A stretch of 58,204 nt of DNA from Nitrospinaceae bacterium (GTDB lineage Bacteria; Nitrospinota; Nitrospinia; Nitrospinales; VA-1): contig JAJDBG010000016.1 in assembly GCA_029261475.1 (NCBI GenBank), positions 1 through 58,204 of the forward strand, given 5' to 3'. Each line of letters starts with the position of its first letter. Position 1 is the stretch's first letter. Made by a program: the position numbers and the translations under genes. Under the pieces are notes generated by a model. The model ran no database searches, was not told where the DNA came from, and saw nothing but the letters and a program-made list of their open reading frames with translations. Shown piece after piece: positions 27,505 through 49,736 of the stretch.

Positions 27505-27945
27505 ATGAAAACCTCCTCCTTCAACAATGGGCTAGCCGGGTTGCATGAAGAGCTCGATCTCGCTCGCGAAGACATTCGCGAAATCATCCGCAGTTCGCCC
27601 GACGATCTGCAAGCCCATCGAGTGAATTGCCTGTATGCCGCAAAGATTCTTGAAGTCTATAAAACCGTATTGCAGGCCCGCTCCATCGACCCCGAAAAAA
27701 TTCTGATCGACGCTTTGATGAGCGTTGTCCTTGTGCTCAATGAAAAAGGCGAAACGCAATCCGCCGAGGCAGTGGGACGTCATCTGGAAATAATAGAAGA
27801 GAAAGCGAAAGAAAAATGGCGACTACAGGGAGAAGCAAATTGGCTAGCGGAAACGCAAGCATCCGAGCCGTCATCGAATCTTCCGTCGGGGCCTTCGGTG
27901 AATCGAGTGCCGAAGAAAAAGAAAAGCGCAAAGAAAAAGCCCTGA
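27505..27945 (+). CDS. Putative small terminase subunit
   Basis: A 146-residue helical protein (LHEELDLAREDIREIIRSS, YAAKILEVYKTVLQARS) with a Lys-rich tail (PKKKKSAKKKP) compatible with DNA contact. It directly precedes and overlaps the large terminase gene, the usual place of terS, but I do not recognise the family by motif. The start at ATG 27505 is the first good ATG; the track ORF begins 11 codons earlier in the leader. Confidence 0.6.
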   Translation: MKTSSFNNGLAGLHEELDLAREDIREIIRSSPDDLQAHRVNCLYAAKILEVYKTVLQARSIDPEKILIDALMSVVLVLNEKGETQSAEAVGRHLEIIEEKAKEKWRLQGEANWLAETQASEPSSNLPSGPSVNRVPKKKKSAKKKP

Positions 27946-29420
27946 CCGATCTTTTCTATTTTGCACGAACCTATTTTCCCCATCATATAACGGAGAAACC
28001 CTCCGTCATGCACCGGGAGTTGTACGCAAGCTACCAATCCATCATTTTACTGTCCGAAAAAACCGGGCAGGGCGCACGCGAAGTGAGAGCCGCACCGCGT
28101 GGCAACGCCAAGTCCACACTCAGCACTCTGATATTGCCCCTCTGGTGTGTCGTCGGAAAAAGGCGCCGGTTTATCGGTGTGCTTTCTGACACCACCGAAC
28201 AGGCCGAAGAATTTTTAGAATCCATCAAGGCCGAGCTGGAAGCCAACGAACGATTACGGGAAGACTTTCCCGACGCATGCACCAGAGGACGCACGTGGCA
28301 GGCCGGGCAAATCATCACCCAGTCCGGTGTGAAAATAAAATGCTGGGGCAAGCGCAAACGTCTGCGCGGCGCAAGACACGGCGCAAGGCGGCCCGATCTC
28401 ATCATCTGCGACGACCTTGAGGACGATGAGAACATCGACTCGCCGGAGCAAAGGGAAAAAGACCGCGCCTGGTTTTTCAAGGCCGTCATGAAAATCGGCG
28501 GACGTTACTCCGTTTATATTGTGATCGGCACCTTATTGCATTACGACTCTTTGCTCGCTCGCTTACTGAATCAGCCAGGCTGGCGCGGAAAAAAATGGCA
28601 GGCTGTCATCAAATGGTCCGCTTCGCCCTTATGGGAACGTTGGGAAAACATCTTCATTAAAGACGGAGAAGAAACAGCCGACGCATTTTTTAAAAAAAAC
28701 AAACGCGAAATGCTGAAAGGAACCCAGGAACTATGGCCTGAAGGGGAACCCTATTATTACCTGATGAAAATAAGGCTTGCCGACGGACCGGCCTATTTCG
28801 ATTCCGAAAAACAGAACGAGCCGATCCATCCCTCCGAACGATTGTTCAATGACGAATGGTTTCAGTATTGGAACGATGAAAACCTGTCTGTGAAAGGGGG
28901 GCTGGAAATATCATCCGATGAAACAATCATCGCCGCAGTTGACCCCTCCATGGGCGGAGCTTCCAGCAAGGCCGATCCATCAGCGATAGTCATCGCCATT
29001 GTCCGAAAAAACGGAGTCCTGGATATTCTCGAAGCAGACATTCAGAAGCGGCATCCCGATGGCATCATGGAAGACCTGTTCGTATGGCATCAAATGTATC
29101 GACTCGACCGGGTTGTCATCGAGGAAGTTCAATTTCAGGAATTGTTCAAAGAACATGTGACACGAGAAGGAGCCAAACGTGGATTGTACCTGCCCATAGA
29201 AGGCACGCGTCCGCACACCGACAAAACCCTTCGCATCTCAAAACTTCAACCCCATATAAAGAACGGCTTCATACGCTTCCGGCGCAAGCAGATAAGTCTG
29301 CTGAATCAATTGAAGTATTTCCCCAAAGCCGATCACGATGACGGACCCGACGCGCTTGAAATGGTATTCAGTCTGGCCCACGCGCAAAGCATCCAACCCC
29401 GCATCCGTCGCGTTCTCTAA
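27816..29420 (+). CDS. Phage terminase large subunit
   Basis: This packaging motor and nuclease carries a Walker A-like APRGNAKST (about residues 93-101), Walker B LIICDDLEDDEN, and RNase H-like nuclease acids in AAVDPSMGG, VVIEEVQF and the C-terminal DDGPDALEM. Length 534 residues. Its track start overlaps the upstream gene by 130 bases; a start slightly further in is possible, since family homology seems to begin near KALTDLFYFARTYF at residue 41. Confidence 0.9.
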   Translation: MATTGRSKLASGNASIRAVIESSVGAFGESSAEEKEKRKEKALTDLFYFARTYFPHHITEKPSVMHRELYASYQSIILLSEKTGQGAREVRAAPRGNAKSTLSTLILPLWCVVGKRRRFIGVLSDTTEQAEEFLESIKAELEANERLREDFPDACTRGRTWQAGQIITQSGVKIKCWGKRKRLRGARHGARRPDLIICDDLEDDENIDSPEQREKDRAWFFKAVMKIGGRYSVYIVIGTLLHYDSLLARLLNQPGWRGKKWQAVIKWSASPLWERWENIFIKDGEETADAFFKKNKREMLKGTQELWPEGEPYYYLMKIRLADGPAYFDSEKQNEPIHPSERLFNDEWFQYWNDENLSVKGGLEISSDETIIAAVDPSMGGASSKADPSAIVIAIVRKNGVLDILEADIQKRHPDGIMEDLFVWHQMYRLDRVVIEEVQFQELFKEHVTREGAKRGLYLPIEGTRPHTDKTLRISKLQPHIKNGFIRFRRKQISLLNQLKYFPKADHDDGPDALEMVFSLAHAQSIQPRIRRVL

Positions 29421-29627
29421 GTAAGTAGCAGAGCGACTCAACAAAACTCCCTTGCCTCCGGGGAGAAACCCGACTCGATGCTTGAGTCGGCGCAGGGTCC
29501 CGGTTTCGTTAAAGGCATGGCGGAACCGGGGCTCATATCAAAATCAAATATTAAGCGTATCCCATTCCAGCATTTCTGCATTTTTGTTAACCCCGTTTTT
29601 TTACTCTCATTCCAAAATGAAATTGCC

Positions 29628-30839
29628 ATGAAAATTTTTCCCTGGTTTCTAAACAAAGCGAGTGCAACGACACGCGCCATAACAATGGTCCTTCCCCTGG
29701 GTTCAAATCCGGTTCCGAGAACCAAGTACAAAGCATTGGCAGAGGAGGGCTACTCCGGCAACACCGTGGTCTTCGCCTGTATCCGGGAAATAGCCGAAGC
29801 CTGCGCAGGGGTCGAGTGGGGGATGTACCGAAAGTCCGCTTCAGGAGAAAGAGAGCGTGTGAGCGATCACCCCGCACTGGAACTGTTGCGCAAGCCCAAT
29901 CCTTTTCAGGGACGATTCGAGTTGTTTGAAAGTGCCATTTCCTACCTGTATCTCTCGGGCAATATTTATATGGAGTCTGTTGATAGCGGTACAGGTCAGG
30001 ACAAGACTTCGCCTCCCCGGGAACTTTATGTCCTGCGCCCCGACAGAGTGCGGATCATCCCACACCCCATTCATCGTATCGGCGGTTATGAATACGAAGT
30101 CGGTGGCAGAAAGCAAAAGTTCTCGGCCCGGCAAATTCTGCACTTGAAACTGTTCAACCCATTGGACGACTGGTACGGGCTTTCGCCAGTGCAAGTTGCC
30201 TCACTCGCGATTGACAAGTTGAATCAAGGCGATCGCTGGAACGCCTCGCTCCTGCAAAACTCAGCCGTCCCTTCTGGCGCACTGGTTTCCCGGCAAAGGT
30301 TGAGCGACGAACAATTTCGGCGTTTGCGGGATGAAATGCGCGAGCAGTTGCAAGGCGTTCGTCATGCTCGTGAGCCGCTTTTGCTGGAACAGGATCTGGA
30401 CTGGAAAGAGTTGGGTGTTTCTCCCAAAGACATGGATTGGATCGAAGGATTGAGACTCAGCGCGGCACAGATCGCGCAGGTGTTCAACGTACCGCCGGAG
30501 TTGGTCGGACTTCAGGAAGCGACCTATCAAAACCGCAAAGAAGCGCGCAAAGCTTTGTACAGCGAAGTGGTCTGCCCGGTGCTGAGTCGATTGCGGGATG
30601 GTTTGAACCAGTGGTTGAGTCCCCGCTACGGGCCGGAATGGACGCTGGAATACGACCGCGACTCGATACCCGCCTTAGCGGAAGACCAGGAGAGTCTCTG
30701 GAATCGAGCCAACCAGTCGGATTTCTTAACCGTCAATGAAAAGCGTCGCATGGTGGGTTATGGAGAACTCTCCGATGGCGACTCGTTAACTTTTTCCAGG
30801 ACAAAGAAAAAAAAGGAAGATCACACAAATGAAAAATAG
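29628..30839 (+). CDS. HK97-type phage portal protein
   Basis: The sequence shows the HK97 portal pattern: VFACIREIAEACAGVEWGMY, HPALELLRKPNPFQG, SYLYLSGNIYME, QILHLKLFNPLDDWYGLSP and FNVPPELVGLQE in the C-terminal half. Twelve copies would form the DNA channel of the capsid. I start it at ATG 29628 (MKIFPWFLNK), 403 residues; the 50 residues upstream in the track ORF look like translated leader. It overlaps the protease gene by 11 bases. Confidence 0.9.
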   Translation: MKIFPWFLNKASATTRAITMVLPLGSNPVPRTKYKALAEEGYSGNTVVFACIREIAEACAGVEWGMYRKSASGERERVSDHPALELLRKPNPFQGRFELFESAISYLYLSGNIYMESVDSGTGQDKTSPPRELYVLRPDRVRIIPHPIHRIGGYEYEVGGRKQKFSARQILHLKLFNPLDDWYGLSPVQVASLAIDKLNQGDRWNASLLQNSAVPSGALVSRQRLSDEQFRRLRDEMREQLQGVRHAREPLLLEQDLDWKELGVSPKDMDWIEGLRLSAAQIAQVFNVPPELVGLQEATYQNRKEARKALYSEVVCPVLSRLRDGLNQWLSPRYGPEWTLEYDRDSIPALAEDQESLWNRANQSDFLTVNEKRRMVGYGELSDGDSLTFSRTKKKKEDHTNEK

Positions 30840-31533
30840 AAAATATCCATCCGGCAACCACGAACAGGATATCAAATCGTTCCCATTCAAAATGGACTCG
30901 GTCAGCACCGAAGGCAGTTTCTCCGGCTACGCCGCCGTGTTTGGGAACATTGATTTGGGTGGCGACATCATCGAACGCGGTGCCTTCAAAAAAACGCTCA
31001 ATGACAATCAAGGCAAGGTTCCTTTACTGGACCATCACGATCCCCAAAAACAGATCGGATGGAACGTGTCTGCGATGGAAGACGGACGCGGATTGCTCGT
31101 GCAGGGAAAACTCAATTTGCAAGTGCAGGGCGCACGCGAGAAACACGCACTGATGAAGCAGGCACTGGAGATGGGGGCGCGGATGGGACTTTCGATAGGC
31201 TTCCGCGTTATACGCGAGGAGTTGGACAAAAAAGATCCGAACATTCGCAGACTCAAGGAAATACAGTTGCTGGAATACAGCATCGTCACCTTTCCAATGA
31301 ACCCGTCGGCACAAGTGACGGGTGTGAAAGGGCGCCGTGACTCGCTTCATCAATTTTTATCGCGTGAATTGGGACTGCCCGAAAGCCAGGCAGATCGCGC
31401 CTGTGAAACCCTCACTCCCTTCCTTCAATCCGCGCCGGCGAAGATCCACGCGGTCGATTCGGAATACGGTGCCGAGGATTTGGAACCGCTGAAACGGTCC
31501 CTGAACCATTTGATCGAACAATTAACGTCCTGA
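30829..31533 (+). CDS. HK97-type prohead protease
   Basis: It matures the capsid by cleaving the scaffold domain. Motifs: FSGYAAVFGNIDLGGDIIERGAF, then VPLLDHHDP with the catalytic His, and MGLSIGFRV with the catalytic Ser, as in the U35 family. The 234 residues include a C-terminal helical part that may bind the scaffold. It lies directly between portal and capsid genes. Confidence 0.92.
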   Translation: MKNRKYPSGNHEQDIKSFPFKMDSVSTEGSFSGYAAVFGNIDLGGDIIERGAFKKTLNDNQGKVPLLDHHDPQKQIGWNVSAMEDGRGLLVQGKLNLQVQGAREKHALMKQALEMGARMGLSIGFRVIREELDKKDPNIRRLKEIQLLEYSIVTFPMNPSAQVTGVKGRRDSLHQFLSRELGLPESQADRACETLTPFLQSAPAKIHAVDSEYGAEDLEPLKRSLNHLIEQLTS

Positions 31534-31572: not shown

Positions 31573-32769
31573 ATGAACGAAGTGAAACAATTGGTCGAGG
31601 AAGTCAACCGCGCGTTCCTCGAGCACAAAAACAAAAACGACCAACGCCTCAAAGAACTGGAGGAAAAAGGACACGTCGATCCGCTCCTGGAGAAACAGGT
31701 GGAGCGCATCAGCGCAGAGATTCAGAATTTGAACGACATGAAGGGAAGGGTGGAAAAGCTCCACACCGCACTCAATCGACCGGGCATGGAATTCACAAAT
31801 GATGTGTCGGTCGATCCCGAGCGCAGTTCACAGCGCAAGGCAATGCTCCAATACATTCGCAAAGGTGAAGGCGCACTCAGCCCGCAAGAAGTCAAACTAC
31901 TCTCCTCCGACAGCGATCCCAATGGCGGCTACTGGGTAGCTTCTGCCATGTCCGATCAAGTTGTGCAGAAAGTTTTTGAAACATCAGCGATGCGCAAACT
32001 GATAGCGGTGGAAACCATTTCGGGAGACGCGCTGGAAGTTCCTGAAGATGTCAATGAAGCATCCGCAGGTTGGACCGCAGAGCAGGCGACGCGCCCGGAA
32101 ACGGCGACACCCGATATCGGCGTGCGGCGCATCCCGGTACACGAATTGTACGCTCAGCCAAAAGCCACACAGACATTGCTCGACGACGCACGAATCGACG
32201 TTGAGAATTGGCTGGCCAACAAGATCGCCGATAAAATTTCACGAATGGAGAACACAGCATTCATCAGCGGAGACGGCATTGGCAAGCCGCGCGGTATCCT
32301 CACGTACCCGGCTGGTACGAGCAATCCCGGCCAGGTACAACAAATCAATTCCGGTTCCGCCTCGGCCCTGACCGCAGATGGATTGCGCTCGGTGTATTAC
32401 GCACTGAAAAGTCCTTATGCAGACAATGCCAGCTGGCTACTGTCACGCAGTTCCGTGGAAGCCGTCTCCAAATTGAAAGACTCCAACGGTCAATACCTTT
32501 GGCAACCGGGCCTGCAAGCAGGCGAACCGCAAACGCTCATGGGCCGTCCCATCGAACGCATGGAAGACATGCCCAACGTCGCATCCAATTCCCTCTCCGT
32601 AGCATTCGGTGATTGGAAGCAAGCCTATACGGCAGTCGATCGAACGGGCGTGCGCATCTTGCGCGATCCCTTCAGCGCAAAACCTTTCGTCATGTTCTAC
32701 ACGACGAAGCGAACCGGAGGAGATGTTCTCAACTTCGAAGCGTTCGTACTCCAAAAGACAGCCGCATGA
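31573..32769 (+). CDS. HK97-fold major capsid protein
   Basis: An N-terminal coiled coil of about 90 residues (VKQLVEEVNRAFLEHKN, LLEKQVERISAEIQNLN) is the delta-like scaffold removed by the protease. The shell domain follows (GGYWVASAMSDQVVQKVFET, SAGWTAEQATRPET, ENTAFISGDGIGKPRGIL, WLLSRSSVEAVSKLKDS). Length 398 residues, normal for HK97-like capsids. Good ribosome site AAGGAG before ATG 31573. A hairpin terminator follows at 32819. Confidence 0.93.
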   Translation: MNEVKQLVEEVNRAFLEHKNKNDQRLKELEEKGHVDPLLEKQVERISAEIQNLNDMKGRVEKLHTALNRPGMEFTNDVSVDPERSSQRKAMLQYIRKGEGALSPQEVKLLSSDSDPNGGYWVASAMSDQVVQKVFETSAMRKLIAVETISGDALEVPEDVNEASAGWTAEQATRPETATPDIGVRRIPVHELYAQPKATQTLLDDARIDVENWLANKIADKISRMENTAFISGDGIGKPRGILTYPAGTSNPGQVQQINSGSASALTADGLRSVYYALKSPYADNASWLLSRSSVEAVSKLKDSNGQYLWQPGLQAGEPQTLMGRPIERMEDMPNVASNSLSVAFGDWKQAYTAVDRTGVRILRDPFSAKPFVMFYTTKRTGGDVLNFEAFVLQKTAA

Positions 32770-32892: not shown

Positions 32893-33276
32893 ATGAAAGA
32901 TGCAAAAAATAATTTATCCGCTTCGAAGAGTCTGGCACCGGCGATTTATTCCACCAATCAGGCGGAAAACGGAGCCAGTGTCGATCTACTGGGATTCGAC
33001 GGAGCGATTGCAGTGTTCACAGCCGGAACCTTGACCGATGGAACCTACGTCCCGAAATTGCAAGAGTCGGAAGACGATGCGACCTGGAGCGATGTGGCCT
33101 CTGCCGATATGGAGGGCAGTCTCGTTTCCATGACCGCCAACTCCATCCAGCGCGTGGGCTACAAAGGTGAGAAACGCTATCTGCGCCCGGTAGTCACCGT
33201 ATCGTCAGCGACCTCTGGCGGCGCACTTTGTGCCATGATGATCCGTAGCATCCCGCACCTTGCACCTGTGGCATAA
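32893..33276 (+). CDS. Putative capsid decoration or head protein
   Basis: A 127-residue protein rich in Ser, Ala, Thr and Gly with alternating beta-like sequence (GAIAVFTAGTLTDGTYVPKL, YLRPVVTVSSATSGGALCAM). It lies between two terminators directly after the capsid gene, where head decoration proteins are often found. This pattern is common in phages of proteobacteria, but the role is inferred from place. GGAG precedes the ATG. Confidence 0.65.
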   Translation: MKDAKNNLSASKSLAPAIYSTNQAENGASVDLLGFDGAIAVFTAGTLTDGTYVPKLQESEDDATWSDVASADMEGSLVSMTANSIQRVGYKGEKRYLRPVVTVSSATSGGALCAMMIRSIPHLAPVA

Positions 33277-33330: not shown

Positions 33331-33375
33331 ATATTAAAACAAGATTTGACCCTAATTTTCGTAAAGGAGAGAGTG

Positions 33376-33765
33376 ATGCCATTCAATATCAGTCCCAATT
33401 TCCAGGAATTCAAGATTCCCATAGGTGACTACAAAATCGTGCTCAAGACAAGGCGTTACACAACAGAAGAATTCAACGCCTTTTTGAATTCGCGGCAGAC
33501 GGTTACAGAAAACGATGTAGAAAATCGAGAAGAGTCAGCCCATATAGATTTCATCAACGAACTTCTGGTTGGAATCTCGGCGACCGATGCGGAAGGCAAA
33601 GATGAAAAGGTGACCTATTCGGACCCGCAAAGCGGAGAGGAAAAGGATCTGAGTCCAGAGGTTCCTGATTGGAAATCGTTCATCGATCCACTTTTCAAAC
33701 TGAGAGCGGGAATTGAGTTACTCAGGGGACAGGGATTGCTGGAGAATCGCCAGCTAAAAAACTGA
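33376..33765 (+). CDS. Tail assembly chaperone, G-type product
   Basis: A 129-residue protein (KIPIGDYKIVLKTRRYTTEEFNAF; acidic middle; PLFKLRAGIELL) in front of the tape measure gene. The start ATG 33376 follows AAGGAGAGAGTG. Its last codons are CTA AAA AAC TGA and form a slippery site, so part of the ribosomes should continue into the -1 frame. Sequence alone would not name it; the frameshift design plus position before the tape measure identify it as the G member of a G/GT pair. Confidence 0.8.
   Translation: MPFNISPNFQEFKIPIGDYKIVLKTRRYTTEEFNAFLNSRQTVTENDVENREESAHIDFINELLVGISATDAEGKDEKVTYSDPQSGEEKDLSPEVPDWKSFIDPLFKLRAGIELLRGQGLLENRQLKN
33756..33762 (+). promoter_or_regulatory. Programmed -1 frameshift slippery site A AAA AAC
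   Basis: In the frame of the chaperone gene the heptamer reads A AAA AAC, an efficient -1 slippery sequence, directly followed by the TGA stop (33763-33765). After slipping, reading continues CTG ATC GCC and stays open for 103 codons to 34073. No strong downstream pseudoknot was identified by eye; stop codon proximity may help. Confidence 0.85.
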
Positions 33766-34073
33766 TCGCCTACCTACAGGACGATGCGGCGGGGCTGGAG
33801 GTAGAGTACAAAAATTTTCTTCAAAGGGTCGAGTTGGAATGTGAAGACCCGGAGTGGAATATAGAAAATCACCCGGCGCGCAACAAACTAAAACAGTACA
33901 GCCCAGCCTTCAAGGACTGGGTTGCAAATCTGGAACGAATCTATCAATGGAAAAGCATTGCTTATCCTTTCGACAAAAACGATTTATCGCCCCTTCAATG
34001 GTCGGGTCTTTCCATACTGGAACGTTTCAGAAAAACAAGTGAACAAAGTTCATGTGCGGGCAGGCCCCCGTGA
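33762..34073 (+). CDS. Tail assembly chaperone, T extension (reached by -1 frameshift)
   Basis: After the frameshift the added sequence begins LIAYLQDDAAGLEVEYKNF and continues into the track ORF at 33834. It ends at 34073, giving a GT fusion of about 232 residues. The extension has a WNIENHPARNKLKQYSPAF and LSPLQWSGLSILERF pattern. In lambda and relatives GT binds the tape measure protein while G coats it. The frame has no good internal start, so frameshift is the simplest way to express it. Confidence 0.78.
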   Translation: MIAYLQDDAAGLEVEYKNFLQRVELECEDPEWNIENHPARNKLKQYSPAFKDWVANLERIYQWKSIAYPFDKNDLSPLQWSGLSILERFRKTSEQSSCAGRPP

Positions 34074-36085: not shown

Positions 36086-36706
36086 ATGTCACTCAAATTG
36101 AAATCTGCTCCTGCTACAGGAGCAGTGACTTTGGCTGAGGCCAAGGATTATCTACGTATCGCGGATTCTCAAAACGATGCTGAAATCGCATCACTGGTGT
36201 TGGCTTTGACAGAACGGGCCGAGTTGTGGACGGGTCGATCTTTTGTCGATCAAAGTTGGACCTTCTGGCTGGACTCCTTGCCGATCACAAAAAGTTGTTA
36301 TGCACGCCAAATTGAAATCCCGCGTCCTCCCCTGCAATCGGTCACACATATCAAGACCTACGACGCAGTAGGGACGGGCGCGGTGTTTCCTGCCAGTTCC
36401 TATTTTGTTGATACCGTGAGCTCGCCGGGTCGCATTGTTTTGCAAGAAGGGCATAGCTGGCCTGCGGGTGGCTTGCGTTTGGCAAATGCGGTGGAGATCG
36501 AATTCATTGCGGGTTATGGCAGTGTGGGAGCGGTACCGCCGGCTCTGCGAGAGGGAATACTGTTGTGGATGAAGGTCTTGTTCTCTGGAAAAACAAAATT
36601 ATTTGAGTCGGATGAATCAACACCGGGTCTTGCAGATTTGCACCGGGGTGAAATACCACCACAGACTTTGACACTCTGGAAACCCTATCAACTCATGCGC
36701 TTGTGA
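36086..36706 (+). CDS. Head-tail connector (gp6-like adaptor)
   Basis: VTLAEAKDYLRIADSQNDAEI at the start and the helix TERAELWTGRSFVDQ are typical of the HK97 gp6 / phiE125 gp8 connector family, as is the C-terminal helix PPALREGILLWMKVLF. Between them lies a beta-rich insertion (PRPPLQSVTHIKTYD, VEIEFIAGYGS). 206 residues. It would bind the portal ring. It overlaps the next gene by 4 bases (GTGA). Confidence 0.88.
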   Translation: MSLKLKSAPATGAVTLAEAKDYLRIADSQNDAEIASLVLALTERAELWTGRSFVDQSWTFWLDSLPITKSCYARQIEIPRPPLQSVTHIKTYDAVGTGAVFPASSYFVDTVSSPGRIVLQEGHSWPAGGLRLANAVEIEFIAGYGSVGAVPPALREGILLWMKVLFSGKTKLFESDESTPGLADLHRGEIPPQTLTLWKPYQLMRL

Positions 36707-37161: not shown

Positions 37162-37210
37162 GAATCGGGCTTAGTGCATACGCATGATTTGTAAAAGAGG
37201 AGGTATTCGC

Positions 37211-37687: not shown

Positions 37688-37807
37688 ATTCCTTCAGTCG
37701 TCTAGTTCCTGCAAAGACAGTTCCTCATTGGATCATCCCGGTTTTACAATCCCCCCCAAAAATTATCAGTGCGAAATCATTCGCATCCATTTAAGGAGAT
37801 ATTTTTT

Positions 37808-39946: not shown

Positions 39947-40078
39947 AAAAATGGAGCAGACCGCATCTGATTACAGCCCGTTCATGCACGCAGGTTATTC
40001 GGTCAAAAAAGCTTGCAGGTTCAGGACCTCCCGCCAAAGATTTTTCTTCTTTCTATAAATCCAAACAGAAAAAATATT

Positions 40079-43060
40079 ATGCGATCTGATTTTAGTTTGA
40101 CCAATGCAATGGTCATGGCTTCGGCTTCCAAGATACCTATCGCCTTGATAAAACTGGAGTGGCCCGCCCAACCTTTGGGTGCGCCTGCATTGAGTTTGTT
40201 TTTGAGTGACAAGCCGGGGATTGTCATTGATGGCAGGACCTGGTTTCATTTGATTGAATCTCAGGGGATGCTGGAACAACTGGTGGATGCTTCGAGTGGT
40301 GAATCTGGGTCCAACGGCAAGGTGACAGTGTCAGTCCTCAATCATCGGACAGACTTATTTTCGCCTTCTAAATCATTCTCTCATATCTTCCGTGAATACA
40401 GGCCGGAGGCAGGTCTGGCAACTGTTTATCAGTGGTTCGAAAATGAAGGAATGATATCAGAAGACTTGACCCCTATGTTCATCGGTCGCCCGGCGGACCC
40501 AATCACTTTTGATGAGAGTTCTTGCTCCTTTAGCATTGTCGATGTCGCAACGATTTATGGTGAGCAAAAACTTGGTGCCTTGGTAAATCATGATGTCTAT
40601 CCTCTGGCACCGGAAGCGTCTGTCGGCAGGATGAAGCCCATTGTATTTGGCAAAGTCCCCATGGCACCTGCTATCCCACTTCGCAAGACGCAGGAGACGC
40701 GGGTGAAGTCTGTGGTATTGAGTGGAGGATCGCTTGTGGACGTAGCGGATACTTCGGGGTTTGCGGATGCGGGTAGCATCATCATCAACGATGATGAGAT
40801 CGCTTACACAAGCAAGAATGCCACACAGTTTCTGGGTTGCACGGGCATCAATGAATTTCATTACGCCGACGATGTGGTGCTGGAGAAGGTGACGGGGCAT
40901 CGGTATTTGTTGAGCGATCCTGTTTATCCGATCCAAAGTATTGGCGCGGTCAGGGCGGGCGGTCACTTGGTGGATAGTGGCGATTACACCGTCGATCTTG
41001 TGAACGGGGAAGTTGTTTTTCCTGACAAGCCGAAGAAAACAGATTCCATCGACACCAAGTTTTTGCAGGCTCAAATGGACGCAGTCGCCTCGGCAAATAA
41101 CGCGACCGATCCGGGCAATGCCTTCATTCCAAACAGTCCGGCGACCTACGCCAAGCTCAGTCAGGGAGCGACCCCGCTTGCTTTGAAACAGACGGATGAT
41201 CTTGCGAATGTGGGTGAGATCGCAAGTGCTTTGGTGCGTGTGGAGCATTTCATGGAAGAAAAGTTGTCGTCCGATTCCTTGACTGTAGAGATACCGGGGA
41301 TCGGCGAGCTGGGCACACTTCCTCCCCCTTCCGTTGATGATCTGGCGGTGGTGACGGGCGATGTGGATATCACCCATGACACTTTGATCGGTACGCTTGA
41401 TTTTCCTGTCACCGACCCGCAACACGAGCATGCCTTACCGCAAAAAACAACCTTTACACAATTAGCAGTGGGCGGGATAGATCCAGAGAACTCATTTAAT
41501 TTGGGCAGTGGCACGAGCCATGCGATCACTTTCCCGTCTTTGCCAGCGGGAACAATAGATACGGGCGAATACAATTTCAATATTGTGGGACCAACGGGTT
41601 GGTCAACCACAACAGGTACTCTGGATGGGCATATCGGCACGTCCCCGGGAGCCAATACTCATAAATATTTCACCAATCCGCTCACAGGTAGCCCCAGTGT
41701 TTATACGCCCTACGGGACCATGAACAGTTTCACTGGAACGACGGTTTATTTGAGCACCAATGCAACCACCACGGCGACCGATATCACCGTGCGCTCGGCG
41801 GTGCGGATCATCACGATGACCCCGGTCGAAGATGTGGGAACACAGTCAACGGGCATCAGCACAAGCAATACCGGATCACTGGCTCAAACCACTGGCAACC
41901 CGGCCCTCAATACAAGCAGTGAGAAAGCCACCAAGACGGTGGTGAAGCATTTCGATATCACGAGCTACGTCAATGGCGATTGGGGCTGGTTCAAGGATAA
42001 AGAGATTCATGTGAAGTACAACGGCTCTGCGGATGGTCGGACGGCATTCATCATCCACACGGCTTTTGAGATCGAATACGCAAGAAGGCGTGTGAGTTTC
42101 ACCGATGAAGTCAGTGCCGATGTGAACGGAGTGATTGATGATGCGAGTGGGACGATTACGGGTACGCCATTGGCTTTGATCGAAAGGCCAGATCATATTT
42201 ATAAGTGGTCTGTTTTGAAGGGCCTTCAAAAAACGGTATCTGAAATCGACGGAGCGTCCTTCACCAGTGCGGGTTCGTTTTATGCGGCGCAAGCGAGTGG
42301 ATATAAGTTTGCCGGGATCGTCCAGGGTCAAAAATCATGGCGGGATTTATGGAAGGAATGGGGGCGTTCTTGCCGATCCTCATTTTACTGGGATTTGGGC
42401 AAAGCTAAAATTCTGATACGTCCGCTCAACCGCGTGGACTTGGGCACGACCTACGATAAGGCGATTCATCCCGACGATCTGCGTCTGGATGACAATTCAC
42501 GTTTGATATTCAAAACTCAGCGCGGGGCTTCGCGCAATATTGTCAATGCCATCGATTTGAAATATCAGAAAAACTGGAGCGGTGGCGAGAGCGAACCTTA
42601 TTCCGCCATTGAATCTGTCAGCGATGCCGATTCGATTTTGCGATATGAAAAACGCGAGGACGGGAGCCGATTCCAATTCGACTGGCTGCGCGATCAGGCG
42701 ATGGCTGGCGACCTTGCAGAATTTTATCTGGAGGAATACGCCGAGCCGTTGGATGTCTACGACTTCGATTTGTTCTTGCCCTACATGGCTTTGGAACGAG
42801 GCGATATCATTCGCATGAATCCGCCATCGCATGATTTGGACAACCTGCTTTGCGTGGTACTCGGCGTGGGCCGTGTCTTTGGATCGGGCAAGGAGGGTCG
42901 GATGGATTCTATCCCCATCACCGCGCGCGCGATGCGTGGTTTGTATATGCCAAAAGACGGATTTGGTTTTACAGGTTTTGGTTTCGATTTTGGTGACCCG
43001 TCGGGTTTTGGTTTGAGCGAATTTGGCGTGACCGGATTCGGCGGCGTAGAAAAAATATGA
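40079..43060 (+). CDS. Large tail hub or baseplate protein
   Basis: A 993-residue protein in the place of the tail tip complex. The first 200 residues (PGIVIDGRTWFHLIESQG, SVLNHRTDLFSPSKSF) look like a baseplate or hub domain. A middle part rich in Thr, Ser and Gly (about 470-640) is fibre-like, and a globular part follows (WSVLKGLQKTVSEIDG, SSFYWDLGKAKILIRPLN). The C terminus is a glycine-phenylalanine-rich tail (GFGFTGFGFDFGDPSGFG). The ATG at 40079 (MRSDFSLTN) is preferred over the TTG of the track. No peptidoglycan hydrolase motif was seen. Confidence 0.75.
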   Translation: MRSDFSLTNAMVMASASKIPIALIKLEWPAQPLGAPALSLFLSDKPGIVIDGRTWFHLIESQGMLEQLVDASSGESGSNGKVTVSVLNHRTDLFSPSKSFSHIFREYRPEAGLATVYQWFENEGMISEDLTPMFIGRPADPITFDESSCSFSIVDVATIYGEQKLGALVNHDVYPLAPEASVGRMKPIVFGKVPMAPAIPLRKTQETRVKSVVLSGGSLVDVADTSGFADAGSIIINDDEIAYTSKNATQFLGCTGINEFHYADDVVLEKVTGHRYLLSDPVYPIQSIGAVRAGGHLVDSGDYTVDLVNGEVVFPDKPKKTDSIDTKFLQAQMDAVASANNATDPGNAFIPNSPATYAKLSQGATPLALKQTDDLANVGEIASALVRVEHFMEEKLSSDSLTVEIPGIGELGTLPPPSVDDLAVVTGDVDITHDTLIGTLDFPVTDPQHEHALPQKTTFTQLAVGGIDPENSFNLGSGTSHAITFPSLPAGTIDTGEYNFNIVGPTGWSTTTGTLDGHIGTSPGANTHKYFTNPLTGSPSVYTPYGTMNSFTGTTVYLSTNATTTATDITVRSAVRIITMTPVEDVGTQSTGISTSNTGSLAQTTGNPALNTSSEKATKTVVKHFDITSYVNGDWGWFKDKEIHVKYNGSADGRTAFIIHTAFEIEYARRRVSFTDEVSADVNGVIDDASGTITGTPLALIERPDHIYKWSVLKGLQKTVSEIDGASFTSAGSFYAAQASGYKFAGIVQGQKSWRDLWKEWGRSCRSSFYWDLGKAKILIRPLNRVDLGTTYDKAIHPDDLRLDDNSRLIFKTQRGASRNIVNAIDLKYQKNWSGGESEPYSAIESVSDADSILRYEKREDGSRFQFDWLRDQAMAGDLAEFYLEEYAEPLDVYDFDLFLPYMALERGDIIRMNPPSHDLDNLLCVVLGVGRVFGSGKEGRMDSIPITARAMRGLYMPKDGFGFTGFGFDFGDPSGFGLSEFGVTGFGGVEKI

Positions 43061-43212: not shown

Positions 43213-44277
43213 ATGACAGACACATACACAACCAATTTTAATATCACCAAACCGCAGGCGGGGAAGAACAATTGGGATGTCGATTACGCGGCCCTCTGCG
43301 ATCTGATCGATTCCCGCCTGGCTCTGCGCTTTCGCAATCTAATCGTCAACGGGGCTTTTGATATATGGCAACGTGGGACCAGCTTTGCCGCAATAGCGGC
43401 CGGATTGTACTCGGCAGATCGTTTTGAAATGTATCGGTCAGCGTTTGCTTTAGGCGCAACCTTGTCACGCCAGTCCAGCAGTGGGATTGTTCGCAGCGAA
43501 TACGTTGCTCGACTGCAACGCGACAGCGGTAATAGCACTACCGACGCACTGTGCTTATCGAGTGCCTTGAAATCGAGCAACAGTCGGCACTTGGCGGGGC
43601 AAAGTGTAACGCTTTCGCTGAAACTTCGTAAGGGCGCGAACTATTCAGGTGGCGACGTTTCTTTCAAGATCGTAAATGGTACGGGAACTGATGAGGGACT
43701 TGGAGGCGTAAATTTCACAGGACACAATGAACTTGCAACGGGGCTTGCCGCGACCACTACGGACTTCCAAATTTTTCAAGTTTCTGGAACGGTTCCCTCA
43801 AGTGCGACACAACTCGGAATTATCTTGTCCTACACGCCGACTGGGACAGCAGGGGCCGATGACTGGATTGAGATTGCAGAAATGCAATTAGAAGAAGGCA
43901 GTGTTGCGACTGCTTTTGAGTATCGTGACGATGGGTTGGAATTGTGGTTTTGCCAGTCTTATTACGAGAAATCATACAATCGTGATACCTCCCCGGGGAC
44001 AGTAACGAACCTGGGAAAAGAGAGTGTTGCCGCACATAGCCTGACTGGATATTTTCGTCACTCCTCTCAATTTAAAACGAGGAAAAGGGTGGTTCCGACG
44101 GTCACCACATACTCAACGGGAACCGGCCTGGCAGGAAAATTGTGGGTTGCTAATACACTTGATGTCGCGCCCTCGCTAGAGGATATAGGAGAAACAGGTT
44201 TTAGTTTCTATCACAACAGGACATGGGACCCCTCTGACTTTATCTGGTGGCATTGGACCGCTGACGCAGAACTTTAA
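43213..44277 (+). CDS. Tail fibre or receptor-binding protein
   Basis: 354 residues. The short N-terminal part (NFNITKPQAGKNNWDVDYAAL) probably joins the tail; then RNLIVNGAFDIWQRGTSF is the well-known start of a beta-sandwich carbohydrate-binding-like domain in phage fibres. LTLSLKLRKGANYSGG and IEIAEMQLEEGSVATAFEYR continue this domain. It should decide host or surface recognition. Confidence 0.82.
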   Translation: MTDTYTTNFNITKPQAGKNNWDVDYAALCDLIDSRLALRFRNLIVNGAFDIWQRGTSFAAIAAGLYSADRFEMYRSAFALGATLSRQSSSGIVRSEYVARLQRDSGNSTTDALCLSSALKSSNSRHLAGQSVTLSLKLRKGANYSGGDVSFKIVNGTGTDEGLGGVNFTGHNELATGLAATTTDFQIFQVSGTVPSSATQLGIILSYTPTGTAGADDWIEIAEMQLEEGSVATAFEYRDDGLELWFCQSYYEKSYNRDTSPGTVTNLGKESVAAHSLTGYFRHSSQFKTRKRVVPTVTTYSTGTGLAGKLWVANTLDVAPSLEDIGETGFSFYHNRTWDPSDFIWWHWTADAEL

Positions 44278-44291: not shown

Positions 44292-44714
44292 ATGTCTGAT
44301 TATAAATTAACTAGCAGTGATGATGTTATTGAGATTGGAACAGGGAGAGTGATCCCAAGTGACATGAGGAACCGTCATCGTATCAAATTCGATGCCTGGA
44401 TTGCGGCGGGCAATACCCCCGACCCGGTCGATCCTGTCATTGTCACGACCGATATGGTAAAGGCCGAAGCGCGTCGGCGTATTCTCGATAATTTCCCGGA
44501 ATGGAAACAGGCCAATATGACTGCGAGAATGGTCGAGTTGAATAAAATACGCGCCGATGCGGGTAGCTGGACGGCGAACGAGCAAACAGAAGTGGCCGCA
44601 ATTCAAAGCGCGTGGGATTGGGTTAAGTCGGTTCGCGCCGCATCAGACGGGCTTGAGCTGAGCTTGCCTGCCGATTATCTGGACGATGGGCATTGGCCAG
44701 CTCCTGTGGTTTAA
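44292..44714 (+). CDS. Tail fibre assembly or accessory protein
   Basis: 140 residues directly after the fibre gene. The first part (VIEIGTGRVIPSDMRNRHRIKFDAWIA) resembles proteins that cap or help fold fibres (the sequence names residue positions in a tail-fibre-assembly way), and the second part is helical (ARRRILDNFPEWKQANMTAR). Family not certain. Confidence 0.6.
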   Translation: MSDYKLTSSDDVIEIGTGRVIPSDMRNRHRIKFDAWIAAGNTPDPVDPVIVTTDMVKAEARRRILDNFPEWKQANMTARMVELNKIRADAGSWTANEQTEVAAIQSAWDWVKSVRAASDGLELSLPADYLDDGHWPAPVV

Positions 44715-44732
44715 ACAATGAAAGGGTAGAAG

Positions 44733-45043: not shown

Positions 45044-45439
45044 TTACTTATCGTAGGAATCGATAACGTCTTTGATATCCTGCACGATGGTTTTGATACT
45101 GAAGGGTTTGGTTATCACTGCGTTCATACCTGATGCGAGATAGAGTTGCTTGTCTTCTTCGGAATTATTGGCTGTCAGGGCAATGATGGGGATGGGCTTT
45201 TTTTCAGGATGTTCGCTTTCAAATGCGCGGATGTTTTTTGTGGATTCAATGCCACCCATGACAGGCATTTGTACGTCCATCAAAATGACATCAAAGACCT
45301 CTGCCTTGTAAGCCTCGAATGCTTGAAGTCCGTCTTCAGCTTCCGTCACCTTGTGACCGCGCCGAGTCAGGAGTTTCACGCCGAGGGAACGGTTCATTGG
45401 TGTATCGTCTGCAAGAAGAATGTTCATAGAATCAGTCAT
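45044..45439 (-). CDS. Stand-alone CheY-like response regulator receiver
   Basis: A complete receiver domain of 131 residues: ILLADDTPMNRSLG with the acidic pair, DVILMDVQMPVMGG with the phosphoacceptor Asp, PIIALTAN with the switch Thr, and AVITKPF with the conserved Lys. No output domain follows, so it would act by protein contact or as a phosphorelay shuttle. It lies 67 bases downstream of the repressor gene on the same strand and probably shares its transcript. No kinase is adjacent. ATG 45439 follows AAGG. Confidence 0.9.
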   Translation of the reverse strand: MTDSMNILLADDTPMNRSLGVKLLTRRGHKVTEAEDGLQAFEAYKAEVFDVILMDVQMPVMGGIESTKNIRAFESEHPEKKPIPIIALTANNSEEDKQLYLASGMNAVITKPFSIKTIVQDIKDVIDSYDK

Positions 45440-45506: not shown

Positions 45507-46394
45507 CTACAGTTCCTTCCAGGCTCCTATGATTCTGCCGACGATGGGGTCGGGTTCTTCTGCCAGATTGATGATCTGTACTTCGGAAATAGGATTAATA
45601 GGGCGCAGGATGAGCAATTCCTTATGGACTTCTAAATATTTTGCGGTCAATCCGTCCTGATAGTAGATGGCGAAAATTTTGTTTTTCTGGATGCTTTTGT
45701 CATCGCGATCGATCACAACGATATCGCCCGAGTGCAACATGGGTTCCATGGATTGACCCTCGACCCGGCTGGCGACCAGGTTATTGCGTTTGCCAGCGGC
45801 TCGTATATGAAGCAGGACATAGTCTTCAATATTGTCTTCCTGAATGATGGGCTGGCCGGCGGCAATGAACGATTCGGTGAGTGGGATGGAGACATAGTCC
45901 TCGGCAGAAATTTTGGGTTCCTTGCGCGAACTTGAGGTTTTGAATACTTTGATCTCGGGCACCGGAGCGTGGTGTTGCTCGACGATGAAAAAGTAGTGCG
46001 GCAAAATATCGAGGGCCTTAGCGAGAGCCTCAATTTCTGCTGTTGTAGCAGGCCATTCCCCCTTTTCGATCAAGTCATAGACGGGTGTGCTCAACCCTAT
46101 TTTCGCGGCGAGTTCTTCGCGGCTCCAACCCTTGTTCCTCCTGAAAAACAAAATATTTTTTAAGACCGTTTTTTGAAGATCTGTTTTAGGGAGTTCCCCG
46201 GCGACAAGCCATTGCAGATTGACTTTGGAATGCTCGGCAATTTTTACCAAAGTTGCGGAACCAGGTGCTCTGCGCCGACTGGTGGATTTTTGCATGGCAG
46301 GATAATTCAAATCGTAATCTTTGCAAAAATCTGCCAGCGACTGCTTTCCCTTCAAATACTCAATTCTGGCAAGAATAGGTTCGTCTTCGTTCAA
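45507..46394 (-). CDS. Phage repressor with two HTH domains and S24 (LexA-like) peptidase
   Basis: Three domains. Residues 1-70 form a CI-like HTH (ILARIEYLKGKQSLADFCKD to LQWLVAGEL). Residues 76-138 are a second Xre-type HTH (FFRRNKGWSREELAAKIGL). From 165 follows the S24 domain with nucleophile Ser215 in VEGQSMEPML, general-base Lys252 in GLTAKYLE, and a likely self-cleavage site Ala-Gly in FIAAGQ (179-180). It should keep the element silent until RecA-triggered self-cleavage. The start is TTG 46394 with AAGGGG upstream; the next ATG would cut the first HTH. Divergent from the early operon. Confidence 0.88.
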   Translation of the reverse strand: MNEDEPILARIEYLKGKQSLADFCKDYDLNYPAMQKSTSRRRAPGSATLVKIAEHSKVNLQWLVAGELPKTDLQKTVLKNILFFRRNKGWSREELAAKIGLSTPVYDLIEKGEWPATTAEIEALAKALDILPHYFFIVEQHHAPVPEIKVFKTSSSRKEPKISAEDYVSIPLTESFIAAGQPIIQEDNIEDYVLLHIRAAGKRNNLVASRVEGQSMEPMLHSGDIVVIDRDDKSIQKNKIFAIYYQDGLTAKYLEVHKELLILRPINPISEVQIINLAEEPDPIVGRIIGAWKEL

Positions 46395-46411
46395 GGCAAT
46401 GATTCCCCTTT

Positions 46412-46433: not shown

Positions 46434-46440
46434 TTTTTGG

Positions 46441-46478
46441 TTGACATGATGAGAAAAGTGTCCGATATTGTTATTCGG
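46441..46478 (+). promoter_or_regulatory. Early promoter of the phage-like element
   Basis: TTGACA (46441-46446), a 17-base spacer, and GATATT (46464-46469) form a good sigma-70-type promoter reading toward the ATPase gene. An imperfect dyad CCGATATTGTTATTCGG (46462-46478) covers the -10 and start and could be another operator. The operator repeats at 46412 lie directly upstream of the -35 element. The leader to the first gene is about 210 bases. Confidence 0.6.
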
Positions 46479-46687
46479 AAAAAGACAGCAGTGTTAATTC
46501 TTTTGAATGGCTTGTTGTTGTCAAAAGGCATAGGGGTCGAGGGCGTATGGGATCGGTCTCATGAACAAAATCAAATGGTATCAACGGAGCAGTGGGGATG
46601 GATGGCCGAAATCACTTCAGGCCTGATGTGGCAAATCCAAACCGGGGGCTTCCGTTCCTTGTTAATTTTAAGAATAGGGGAAGGTTT

Positions 46688-48886
46688 ATGATCAAGCAAT
46701 TAAAAATTGAGGGATTCAAGGATCAATGGCGAGACATTCAGTTAACGGGTCTGGATTTGTTCACTTCGGATAATGTCAATGGTGTTGGCAAGTCGGCGGT
46801 TCTGGAATCGTTCAAACTTGCGGTTTTGGGGGAACTGCCGGGTCGGGCAAAAAATTTGGACGATATTATGAAATTCACTTCTATGGATGAAATGTCTGTA
46901 GGTGCTGAGTATGACGATGGGAATCGGTCGGTTTTTTTCAAACGAAAGTTTTGCCGGGATGGAAAGCAGGGCGAGAAGCGTCCGATTTGGATCGACCGTA
47001 TTTCTTTGAAGTACGAGGAAGGCAACCACTGGATTCGGCAGAACATCGGTGCGGCTTCTATAGGCTTTGATCCGAATGAATTTTTGAATTTGAATGGCCC
47101 GAAGAAACTTCAGTGGATCATTTCAAACTCTCCTGAATCCTGGGCGATGACTCGGGAGTGGGTGCATTTGGTCTTCCTGGCAAAGTTGACGGAAAAATAT
47201 TTGGGAGCGGGTCTGGTTGCTCATCTATTAGCTCCCTTCGATATCAAAGGCTCGGAGGAATTGTTCGATCCGAAATCCTCAAGGCCATTGTCTGCAATGA
47301 CGCGTGTTTTGGAGGAGGCCTTTAAGGGGCAGGAAACAGACTCATGGAAGATCATTGAAAAAGTTCTCACTGCTTGCTGGCAGGTTTGGTCGGAGTCGGC
47401 ATCGGGAGAAGAAAATCTGAAGTCGATCCAAAAATTTTTAAAATCGGTCATTGCAGAGCGTAAGGGTGCCATTCGCGAACAGAGCTCTGCGATTGCCTGC
47501 ATGAAAAAGGACAATACTCAGAATGCTTTAGGGTCTGCTGATACGGAACGCAATGAGGTTCGGCGTTTGGCAGAGGAGATAGAGAAAGTATGCATTTCTC
47601 TGGAGAGGGTGAAGGTCGAACATCAGTCGGCAAGGGAGCGTGAGGGGCGTAAAGACTGGTTGAGAGAGGAAATCTCTCGTCTTGCAGGGCAAATTCCTTC
47701 TGCCAATGATGATTTTGATGGAAGGGTCGCGGAATTGACCGGGGCCTTGGTGGATGTCCTTCCTATCGAGAAGGAATTGGAAGAGGTCGGAGAGGAATAC
47801 GATCATCTTTGCGAGAATTTAAAGTTGGCAAAGTTGGAGGGGGAGAAAATTTCGAATCTGGCACTATTGAAAAAGGAGAAATCCGAGGCTGTGGATTCGG
47901 CCCTCATTCGATGCCCGGTAGCGGAATCTATTGTCTGCGATACAAATATGGAACCTCACCGAATTGCTTTGCGTGCAGAATTGAAAGAGCTCGATTCACG
48001 TTTGCGTGAGGTTCAGGAATGGATTGATGAACTTCAACAGCAGAAGGAAGCTCAGGCTTTGAAAAAAAATGCTGTGGCGGAGCGGTTGAACTCGGCGAAG
48101 ACCTGGAACGAAAGTCTCAAAATCCAGTTGGAAGAATTGAAAGAGAAGCGTTCTTCTATTCAAAGAGAAGAGTCACGTTTGACAGGGATGTCGAACGCCT
48201 ACCGAAAGGAGTTGTTTGAACTGGAAAAAAATTTCCCGATTGAGGAAGAAAAATCTGAGCCGGAGAAAGAGCTGGAGGAGAGAAGAGAACGGCTTCTGAA
48301 AGAAAAAAAGAGCCACGAGGAAAGTTTGGAGTCGATCCTGCGCGAAGAGGGACAAAGGCGAAGTCTGATGGAGCTGAGTGCCAAAAAAAAGTTGTCAGAA
48401 AATGAATTGGAAGTTCTCCAAAGGCTTGAGTCCTTGGCTGGCCCGGGTGGGTTGAGTCGGGACATTGCGGTTTCTGCCGCTTTAGGACTGGAGAAGGATG
48501 TCGGCGATGCTTTGCGTTTGCTGGACGATCGATTGAAATTTGCGGTGGATTTGCGCGGTCGGGAATTGGTGATGGGTTGGAACTGTGAAGAAAAACTCAT
48601 TCCTTTTTTCACGATCAATTCGGGACACTTTGTATTATTCATCGTTCCCTTTCTGGCAACACTGGTTGCGCGTTTGGCACGGGTTCGGAAGAAGGGTCGT
48701 ACGCTGAGGGCTCTTTGTATTGAAGCGGAAGCTTTGACTCCTTCCAATCTAAAAATTTTACTGGAAGGTTTATCGAAAATGAAAGAAGCGGGTTACCTGG
48801 ACAACATATTGGTGGCGCATTACACCTCGGTCAAGGACCCGACAGCATTGCATGGTTTTTGTGAGCACATACTTACGGCGAACTGA
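46688..48886 (+). CDS. Rad50/RecF-like coiled-coil ATPase
   Basis: 732 residues from ATG 46688 (MIKQLKIEGFKDQWRDIQ), preceded by GGGGAAGG. Walker A is NVNGVGKS (about residues 29-36). A long coiled coil spans about 260-600 with a possible hook at CPVAESIVC (about 409-417). The C-terminal ATPase half has NSGHFVLFIVPFLA in place of the ABC signature and LRALCIEAEALTP as Walker B. It resembles SMC/Rad50/RecF proteins that act in DNA repair, recombination or defence. No Mre11/SbcD-type nuclease is next to it. First gene of the early operon. Confidence 0.82.
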   Translation: MIKQLKIEGFKDQWRDIQLTGLDLFTSDNVNGVGKSAVLESFKLAVLGELPGRAKNLDDIMKFTSMDEMSVGAEYDDGNRSVFFKRKFCRDGKQGEKRPIWIDRISLKYEEGNHWIRQNIGAASIGFDPNEFLNLNGPKKLQWIISNSPESWAMTREWVHLVFLAKLTEKYLGAGLVAHLLAPFDIKGSEELFDPKSSRPLSAMTRVLEEAFKGQETDSWKIIEKVLTACWQVWSESASGEENLKSIQKFLKSVIAERKGAIREQSSAIACMKKDNTQNALGSADTERNEVRRLAEEIEKVCISLERVKVEHQSAREREGRKDWLREEISRLAGQIPSANDDFDGRVAELTGALVDVLPIEKELEEVGEEYDHLCENLKLAKLEGEKISNLALLKKEKSEAVDSALIRCPVAESIVCDTNMEPHRIALRAELKELDSRLREVQEWIDELQQQKEAQALKKNAVAERLNSAKTWNESLKIQLEELKEKRSSIQREESRLTGMSNAYRKELFELEKNFPIEEEKSEPEKELEERRERLLKEKKSHEESLESILREEGQRRSLMELSAKKKLSENELEVLQRLESLAGPGGLSRDIAVSAALGLEKDVGDALRLLDDRLKFAVDLRGRELVMGWNCEEKLIPFFTINSGHFVLFIVPFLATLVARLARVRKKGRTLRALCIEAEALTPSNLKILLEGLSKMKEAGYLDNILVAHYTSVKDPTALHGFCEHILTAN

Positions 48887-48951
48887 ATGACAACGATCGT
48901 ACGATGGATAGAAATTCACGAAACTAATGAAGGGATTCCCGGTTGTACCTT

Positions 48952-49377
48952 ATGAAAAAACTCAGAGTTCGGAAATTGAATCAAAGGCGTTCGCGTGTAT
49001 TCAATCGATGCCCCATTGTCAATCGCGTTATGGAAACGGGGGAAAGGTTGACGCGCGGATGTGGCGGCCTCAGCATGGTCACCGATGAAATTGGAGGGCA
49101 TTGTTTGTATTGCGGCAATTTTTATTACAAAAAACAGGCTTCACTGGAGGTGCTTTGGTTCCATTTCAAAATATCGCGAGAATATTGGAGTGTCCGTCGT
49201 GGACCCGAGCAGGAGTATATCAACGGATTTCCTGTCGATGGGATAGCCGACTCGCTTCCGGGAATTTTGAAGTCTGATCTGGATGAGGCTCATCCACCAG
49301 AATGGTTCTCGTATTTTATGAATTCCGATGAAGAACAATTCAAAAAATATCTGCAAGAAAGATGGAAAGGAAATTAA
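48952..49377 (+). CDS. Cysteine-containing protein of the early operon, unknown
   Basis: 141 residues with a very basic N terminus (KKLRVRKLNQRRSRVFNR), then GHCLYCGNFYYKK, one CxxC knuckle, with other Cys at CPIVNRV and RGCGG. A single CxxC plus distant Cys may bind zinc. The second half has YWSVRRGPEQEYINGFPV and an acidic helix. Not recognised. ATG 48952 is preferred over TTG 48943. It may be a DNA-binding or packaging regulator by location. Confidence 0.62.
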   Translation: MKKLRVRKLNQRRSRVFNRCPIVNRVMETGERLTRGCGGLSMVTDEIGGHCLYCGNFYYKKQASLEVLWFHFKISREYWSVRRGPEQEYINGFPVDGIADSLPGILKSDLDEAHPPEWFSYFMNSDEEQFKKYLQERWKGN

Positions 49378-49379
49378 AA

Positions 49380-49736
49380 ATGGAACTCAAAGAAGCTGGC
49401 AAATGGGGCGATTCATTTTCATCGAGTATGGGTTTGGTGGAAGATCGGAACATGAGGTACTTTGCACCGAACCAATTAGAATATATTCAAAGTGGATGCA
49501 GGGATGAGCGTTGGGGTGGAGAATATTTTCCACGCGAAAAATACGATTATCTAAAAAAAGTGCGAGTGGACCTGGAAGGATTTCAATTGACCGACAAGCA
49601 ATTGATTGCCGTAAGCCTGGTATTTTATGGTGGCTTGAAAAAAAATCGGGCGGCGGGAGTTATGAAAATAAGTGCTCAGGCAGTGGACGAACACCTGAAA
49701 GCGGCTCTAAAAAAAATTGGTGCAGGTTTGGCCTGA
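49380..49736 (+). CDS. HTH regulator with sigma-70 region 4-like C terminus
   Basis: 118 residues. The C-terminal half (FQLTDKQLIAVSLVFYGGLK, then MKISAQAVDEHLKAALKKIG) has the helix-turn-helix pattern of sigma region 4 / LuxR-type domains found in phage late-gene activators such as the ArpU/RinA type. The N-terminal half (YFAPNQLEYIQSGCRDE) is unknown. AAAGGA lies 8 bases upstream of ATG 49380. Last gene of the early operon; on a circular form it would lie directly before terS. Late activator role is inferred. Confidence 0.68.
   Translation: MELKEAGKWGDSFSSSMGLVEDRNMRYFAPNQLEYIQSGCRDERWGGEYFPREKYDYLKKVRVDLEGFQLTDKQLIAVSLVFYGGLKKNRAAGVMKISAQAVDEHLKAALKKIGAGLA

Follow-up and report, generated by a model that had tools for sequence, protein, structure and literature searches.

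We examined contig JAJDBG010000016.1 from a Nitrospinaceae bacterium whose genome assembly (2.9 Mb) is fragmented into 154 contigs; the window of 58,204 bases is the entire contig. The host order, Nitrospinales (Nitrospinota), is a group of mostly marine nitrite oxidizers. Positions 27505–49736 hold a 22-kb tailed-phage particle cluster encoding a terminase, portal, protease, HK97 capsid, connectors, tube, short tape measure, tail tip, and fiber. Comparison across the order shows that the last common ancestor of the Nitrospinales sampled already carried this phage head–tail operon beside dnaA, with etfB as the other neighbor in most of the order, that the operon is under purifying selection, and that it has repeatedly been deleted in place. 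We consider the cluster a domesticated siphovirus particle that probably serves Nitrospinales as a gene transfer agent (GTA).

Gene content and setting of the cluster

Directly to the left of the cluster and on the opposite strand lies dnaA (25420–26790, minus strand; PF00308, E 6e-71), followed by gyrB and gyrA. The adjacency to dnaA reported in the original prediction thus holds, and the positions in relatives make dnaA the constant left neighbor across the order. The right flank is etfB-etfA in most of the order and differs in the window's own genus. As also predicted, there is no tRNA in the window and no direct repeat of at least 13 bases between the two cluster ends, and none of the cluster proteins scanned for Pfam and phrog profile matches was an integrase or transposase. 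Replication genes and att sites were likewise not found at the cluster, which leaves it without the features that define a temperate prophage. The window contains no exact DnaA box and two one-mismatch boxes (25387 and 25420); the position of oriC is suggested solely by a turn in GC skew at ~28–33 kb.

The structural genes all lie on the plus strand, and their intact reading frames and profile matches bear out the claim that the structural modules are complete and intact. A small conserved gene (27505–27945; 34–87% in relatives, dN/dS 0.07–0.22) precedes that for the terminase large subunit, TerL (27816–29420; phrog_38, E 2.6e-112), and is by position a candidate small terminase. Next are the portal (29478–30839; PF04860, E 9e-82), the S78 prohead protease (30829–31533; PF04586, E 5e-25), and the HK97-fold major capsid protein (31573–32769; PF05065, E 1e-84), which resembles the capsid of RcGTA, its best solved relative (6tba/6tb9, E 1.8e-90). 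A conserved head gene (32893–33276; phrog_5707, E 1e-20) is shared with phages, being present in 54 viral loci versus only 4 alphaproteobacterial loci. Farther downstream are the head–tail adaptor (36086–36706; phrog_442, E 5e-22) and a neck or tail completion protein (36703–37161; phrog_5, E 2e-8).

The tail tube (37769–38851; PF18906, above cut-off) is preceded by a conserved tail gene of family F15 (37184–37687), as it is in an integrase-bearing prophage of another Nitrospinales genome (G040). For the distal tail protein (Dit or lambda gpM-like; 38873–39250), the assignment draws on an AlphaFold2 model (pLDDT 79) for which Foldseek retrieved tail-tip and tube proteins, including lambda 8iyk_E (TMt 0.73) and RcGTA 6tba_50. 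A small conserved tail-tip gene (39312–39632; family F12, by tblastn) separates it from the large tail hub or tail-tip protein of 1015 amino acids (40013–43060), which is kept in all full clusters and has a homologue at the corresponding point among the tail genes of the G040 prophage (E 3.5e-235). The AlphaFold model of this hub (pLDDT 35) was unusable and was set aside. A fast-evolving tail fiber (43213–44277; phrog_4492, E 7e-48; dN/dS 0.36) and a small fiber-associated protein (44292–44714; family F30) complete the tail.

The tape measure is short, as originally predicted: a 389-residue protein of family F13 (34821–35990), recognized by its C-terminal motif IPYDNFPASLHKGEAVLP and by its position in relatives, where it falls between the chaperones that follow the tube and Dit. 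Across the family, the tape-measure-like C-terminal motif reads IPYDxFPAxLHxGEAVLP, the length is 315–389 amino acids in most genomes, and one relative's F13 protein matches the tape measure profile phrog_2854 (E 0.004). In the window, this gene and those for two putative tail assembly chaperones (33346–33765, family F16; 33765–34061, family F24, matched by tblastn at 47–64% identity) are displaced among the head genes, whereas relatives have them after the tube (F16 in G009, G014, G026, G064, and G065). Four of these genomes (G009, G026, G064, and G065) encode the tube, two small genes, F13, the distal tail protein, F12, and the hub in that order, which is the usual siphovirus arrangement.

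The cluster is not regulator-free, because it contains two reverse-strand regulatory genes, which the original prediction had missed, and ends in a sigma-region-4-like gene. On the minus strand are a single-domain response-regulator receiver protein (45044–45439; PF00072, E 2e-26) and a helix-turn-helix (HTH) plus S24 repressor of the CI/LexA type (45507–46394; PF00717, E 1e-16, and PF01381). At the right end, on the plus strand, is a pair consisting of a zinc-ribbon-like conserved protein (48943–49377), whose Cys residues are invariant in alignment, and a sigma-region-4-like HTH protein (49362–49736; phrog_3512 sigma factor, E 5e-5; weak Sigma70_r4 match; alignment) that is a candidate activator of the operon. 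An SbcC/SMC-like ATPase gene of family F22 (46592–48886, plus strand; likely start 46688) lies between the S24 promoter and the 48943 gene in 6 of the 13 full clusters; its P-loop was read from the sequence, and it has no Pfam match.

Two further features occur in relatives. In most of them, a small protein with one transmembrane segment and a coiled coil (family F18; L248:2206-2568, L036:8289-8639, and others) is encoded between dnaA and the terminase; it is absent from the window's genus and is a possible holin. Insertions of ~5–8 kb separate terminase and portal in G044 (L040:8522-13017), G016, and G046, and the one in G044 encodes a 740-residue protein with a dCTP-deaminase-like C-terminus.

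Distribution, descent, and selection

Among the 64 genomes of the order, TerL was found in 30 and the portal and capsid in 28 each, in single copy except for broken frames; the capsid was absent from all 13 genomes of other families in the phylum. Gene order next to dnaA, a comparison that the original prediction had proposed, places the cluster at the same locus across the order. In all of the ~22 related genomes where the contig permits a check, it adjoins dnaA and points the same way; it begins 0.5–2.2 kb from dnaA wherever the contig allows, and shows conserved gene order and orientation in three families (f1, f2, and f4). In one genome (G039), the dnaA–TerL part and the part from the portal onward are on separate contigs.

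In genomes that lack the cluster, dnaA adjoins etfB or cluster debris lies between them. The dnaA–etfB gap is ~0.1–0.4 kb in G015, G017, G029, G021, G068, and G060, and ~2.8 kb, with an unrelated gene inside, in G008. The debris consists of the receiver and 49362 genes in G019, the small upstream gene and 49362 in G023, a 49362 fragment in G066, the receiver gene in G030 and G027, a TerL fragment with a stop together with 49362 in G003, and TerL, a broken S24 gene, and the receiver gene in G048. Two other genomes (G049 and G038) retain all four regulators (S24, receiver, 48943, and 49362) without structural genes. Explaining which genomes have the cluster takes at least 11 changes on a host tree of 43 genomes. 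The cluster is thus a single ancestral locus, vertically inherited and with no fewer than about ten in-place losses, which excludes a recent or defective prophage.

Vertical inheritance was assessed with a cluster tree built from TerL, portal, protease, capsid, the 32893 gene, and the adaptor of 22 genomes. Host trees were built from the linked DnaA, GyrB, and GyrA and from the unlinked rpoB (G045 excluded), and the comparison used the 15 genomes common to all three. All 12 splits of the cluster tree recur in the rpoB tree (path-length r 0.96) and 11 of the 12 in the DnaA/GyrAB tree (r 0.98), and none of 2,000 permutations reached the observed path-length correlation. Cluster genes evolve at ~1.3 times the rate of DnaA/GyrAB.

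The dN/dS of the structural genes, another check proposed at the outset, revealed strong purifying selection. Pairwise Nei–Gojobori values, which are rough because dS often exceeds 1, were 0.04–0.12 for TerL, 0.03–0.11 for the portal, and 0.02–0.10 for the capsid, compared with 0.025–0.07 for dnaA and gyrase; fibers, tail tip, and fast head genes gave 0.1–0.36. Reading frames are intact despite up to 40% protein divergence, although a few are split or interrupted by single stops in draft assemblies. That the cluster is a domesticated, vertically inherited particle that has co-diversified with its hosts is, on these observations, close to certain.

Several side observations accompany this survey. 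Synonymous divergence of head genes (dS 0.3–0.7) is below that of dnaA (0.9–1.0) in the pairs G064/G065 and G024/G028, reflecting either codon bias or recombination between lineages; in G064/G065, the S24 and receiver genes (dS 0.8–1.0) also exceed the head genes. Cluster-bearing genomes are larger (median 3.2 versus 2.6 Mb at completeness of at least 85%, p 0.005, in a comparison that ignores phylogeny). Elsewhere, a lone capsid gene (L325:14872-16071, G018:C1; 399 amino acids, 58% identical to that of the window) is surrounded by host genes for polysaccharide synthesis and has no phage neighbors; it may be a remnant that has been displaced or a shell put to separate use. The window's own genome holds a second, unrelated phage head module on an 8.9-kb contig (G000:C97, L327); at 28% identity, its portal and capsid were ruled out as a copy of the same element.

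Regulatory genes and operators

Alignment of 13 loci showed the phospho-acceptor Asp and the Lys of the receiver to be invariant, as are the AAG cleavage site, the SMEP serine, and the TAK lysine of the S24 repressor. These key residues of both proteins are intact even at loci stripped of structural genes. Near the S24 start, at least 12 of 15 loci carry two sites of the type GGGACA-N2-TGTCCC, ~31 bp apart, the first of which falls within the spacer of a TTGACA promoter facing the 48943–49362 pair. The promoter in the window (46441–46475, plus strand; TTGACA-17-GATATT) has TTGACA at 46441, then GTGTCC, then GATATT, so that a degenerate operator occupies its spacer where relatives have full operator pairs. 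Exact GGGACANNTGTCCC sites number nine in the 64 whole genomes, five directly upstream of a cluster S24 gene and four elsewhere. Because a reversed control pattern is about as frequent genome-wide as the operator pattern, the evidence for these operators is their position rather than their number.

No operator was found at the structural operon, and 9-mers common to the TerL upstream and S24 regions proved to be A+T-rich chance matches. The canonical host LexA was considered as the operator-binding protein and rejected: the hosts carry a separate lexA, and the two upstream regions that could be read lack such a site.

These elements suggest a regulatory scheme. In uninduced cells, the cluster-encoded S24 repressor would occupy the two operators over the promoter of the 48943–49362 pair, and DNA damage, or a signal through the neighboring receiver protein, would remove it. 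The 49362 product, whose weak similarity to sigma region 4 and place in the cluster point to an activator, could then switch on the structural operon that starts beside dnaA. The terminase would fill small heads by a headful mechanism with any chromosomal DNA present, and a short tail, made with the tape measure of 315–389 amino acids, would deliver that DNA to related cells. Lysis might come from unlinked genes, by analogy with RcGTA.

Interpretation and relation to known systems

The original prediction had offered a domesticated particle or GTA-like element, with a defective prophage as the simpler alternative. Locus conservation, tree congruence, purifying selection, and in-place loss with remnants strongly support the former over the latter. 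The order does not display the pattern named in advance as refuting, namely, occurrence in only one strain together with an integrase and att sites. A repeatedly integrating prophage, ordinary or defective, would account for structural genes that all derive from caudoviricetes and for an S24 repressor with operators resembling a lysogeny switch, and genuine prophages do exist in these hosts. We nevertheless consider it highly improbable: there is one copy at one site, with no integrase, att repeats, or replication genes; the cluster tree matches the unlinked rpoB tree at every split; frames stay intact, and dN/dS is below 0.12, even where proteins have diverged by up to 40%; remnants lie in place in cluster-less relatives; and viral-contig matches of at least 64% identity are fragments of the Nitrospinales cluster, real phages reaching 48% at most. 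A recent prophage is ruled out by tree congruence and synteny. Equally little credence goes to the idea that the locus is kept for host-serving regulators (S24, receiver, 48943, and 49362) with the structural genes riding along. Although G049 and G038 keep just these four regulators, strong purifying selection acts on the structural genes too, and losses in G023, G066, G008, and G015 have taken nearly all regulators as well.

A more serious rival, which we judge unlikely but deserving of attention, is a host-exapted, selected particle with another function, such as killing, holding DNA, or storing repair templates within a clone. Such a particle would be just as likely to be vertically inherited, selected, and under host-type regulation, fast fiber evolution is also seen in particles that recognize competitors, and family f2 has clusters without tube and tape measure. 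However, the cluster keeps its terminase, portal, protease, and capsid genes, and these rank among the most constrained, which is sensible only if DNA is packaged; a tailocin, a tail without capsid and terminase, would have lost them. With TerL, portal, and capsid intact and constrained, the cluster is therefore not a tailocin.

We judged GTA membership by the six criteria of Kogay et al. 2022 (PMC9662315). The particle proteins derive from caudoviricetes, inheritance is mostly vertical with co-diversification (tree congruence and the order-wide locus), and endogenization is complete, as seen in the fixed dnaA–etfB position, the lack of integrase and att repeats, and the decay in place. The other three criteria concern packaging of mostly random host DNA, a head too small for the whole locus (22 kb here, with a capsid resembling that of RcGTA), and delivery to other cells. 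That the cluster is a functional GTA in the strict sense seems fairly likely; random packaging and delivery are what we infer.

Several points weigh against a GTA. The particle, its packaged DNA, and transfer are predictions from the genes, and no lysis gene was recognized in the cluster. Many genomes have lost the cluster, which is therefore dispensable. Tube, tape measure, and chaperones are missing from the f2 clusters, so that f2 particles may be short-tailed or may not deliver DNA; the tube occurs in only one of seven f2 genomes (G040), within the integrase-bearing prophage elsewhere. The window's own operator copy is degenerate, and a damage-responsive repressor is equally typical of an ordinary temperate phage. 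A low-carbon amino-acid bias has been reported for RcGTA-like GTAs; measured as carbon atoms per residue against viral homologues, it was shown by our alphaproteobacterial control and not found in the Nitrospinales cluster, a comparison confounded by differing host GC.

We lean, if only slightly, toward a fuller proposal: a new, independently evolved Nitrospinota GTA family, ancestral to Nitrospinales, that combines an RcGTA-like head, a terminase and tail unrelated to those of RcGTA, a site beside the replication origin region, an S24 and receiver switch, and damage-triggered gene exchange. Such a family would extend GTAs to Nitrospinota, home of major marine nitrite oxidizers, and would mean that DNA damage triggers gene exchange among these organisms in the ocean. 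The candidate has been told apart from prophages by comparative evidence alone, namely, order-wide vertical inheritance at a fixed locus, selection, and in-place loss, and the locus offers a regulator and an operator open to direct testing. In the literature searched, no paper linked Nitrospina to GTAs and nothing concerned the dnaA-side locus.

Similarity to the Rhodogtaviriformidae-type agents RcGTA and CcGTA, the Caulobacter GTA, is partial. Shared features are the HK97-type head with homologous portal, protease, capsid, and adaptor, whose profiles match most alphaproteobacterial RcGTA-type loci, the short tape measure, and vertical co-diversification with the host. In contrast, profiles found no tail homologues and a marginal TerL match in RcGTA-type loci, and the Nitrospinales cluster shows no low-carbon bias. 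In a quick tree of portal, protease, and capsid, Nitrospinales form one clade (SH-aLRT 100) sister to viral contigs L143/L146, and nearly all alphaproteobacterial loci fall in another clade with its own viral sister. The separate clades and the non-homologous RcGTA terminase and tail argue for independent domestication; they place the cluster outside Rhodogtaviriformidae and rule out direct descent from RcGTA.

A closer source of tail homologues is the G040 prophage (contig C12, L323–L324), which shares tube, chaperones, distal tail protein, hub, and F19 with the cluster but differs in its integrase, GpA-type terminase, lambda-type portal, 572-residue tape measure, and location. Bartogtaviriformidae (BaGTA) and Brachygtaviriformidae (VSH-1/BhGTA) are independently domesticated caudoviricete clusters that are vertically inherited (PMC9662315); the Nitrospinales cluster resembles these described systems in both respects, in different hosts. 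In regulation, the nearest parallel is the Caulobacter GTA, where RogA, a LexA-like repressor without catalytic residues, acts on the activators gafYZ (PMC9632790, PMC11150451). The layout is similar in that a repressor acts, or in Nitrospinales is predicted to act, on an activator pair. Unlike RogA, which has lost its autocleavage residues (PMC9632790), the Nitrospinales S24 repressor retains them and is encoded inside the cluster. By this analogy, the RogA–gafYZ parallel suggests that control of GTA activators by LexA-like repressors evolved more than once.

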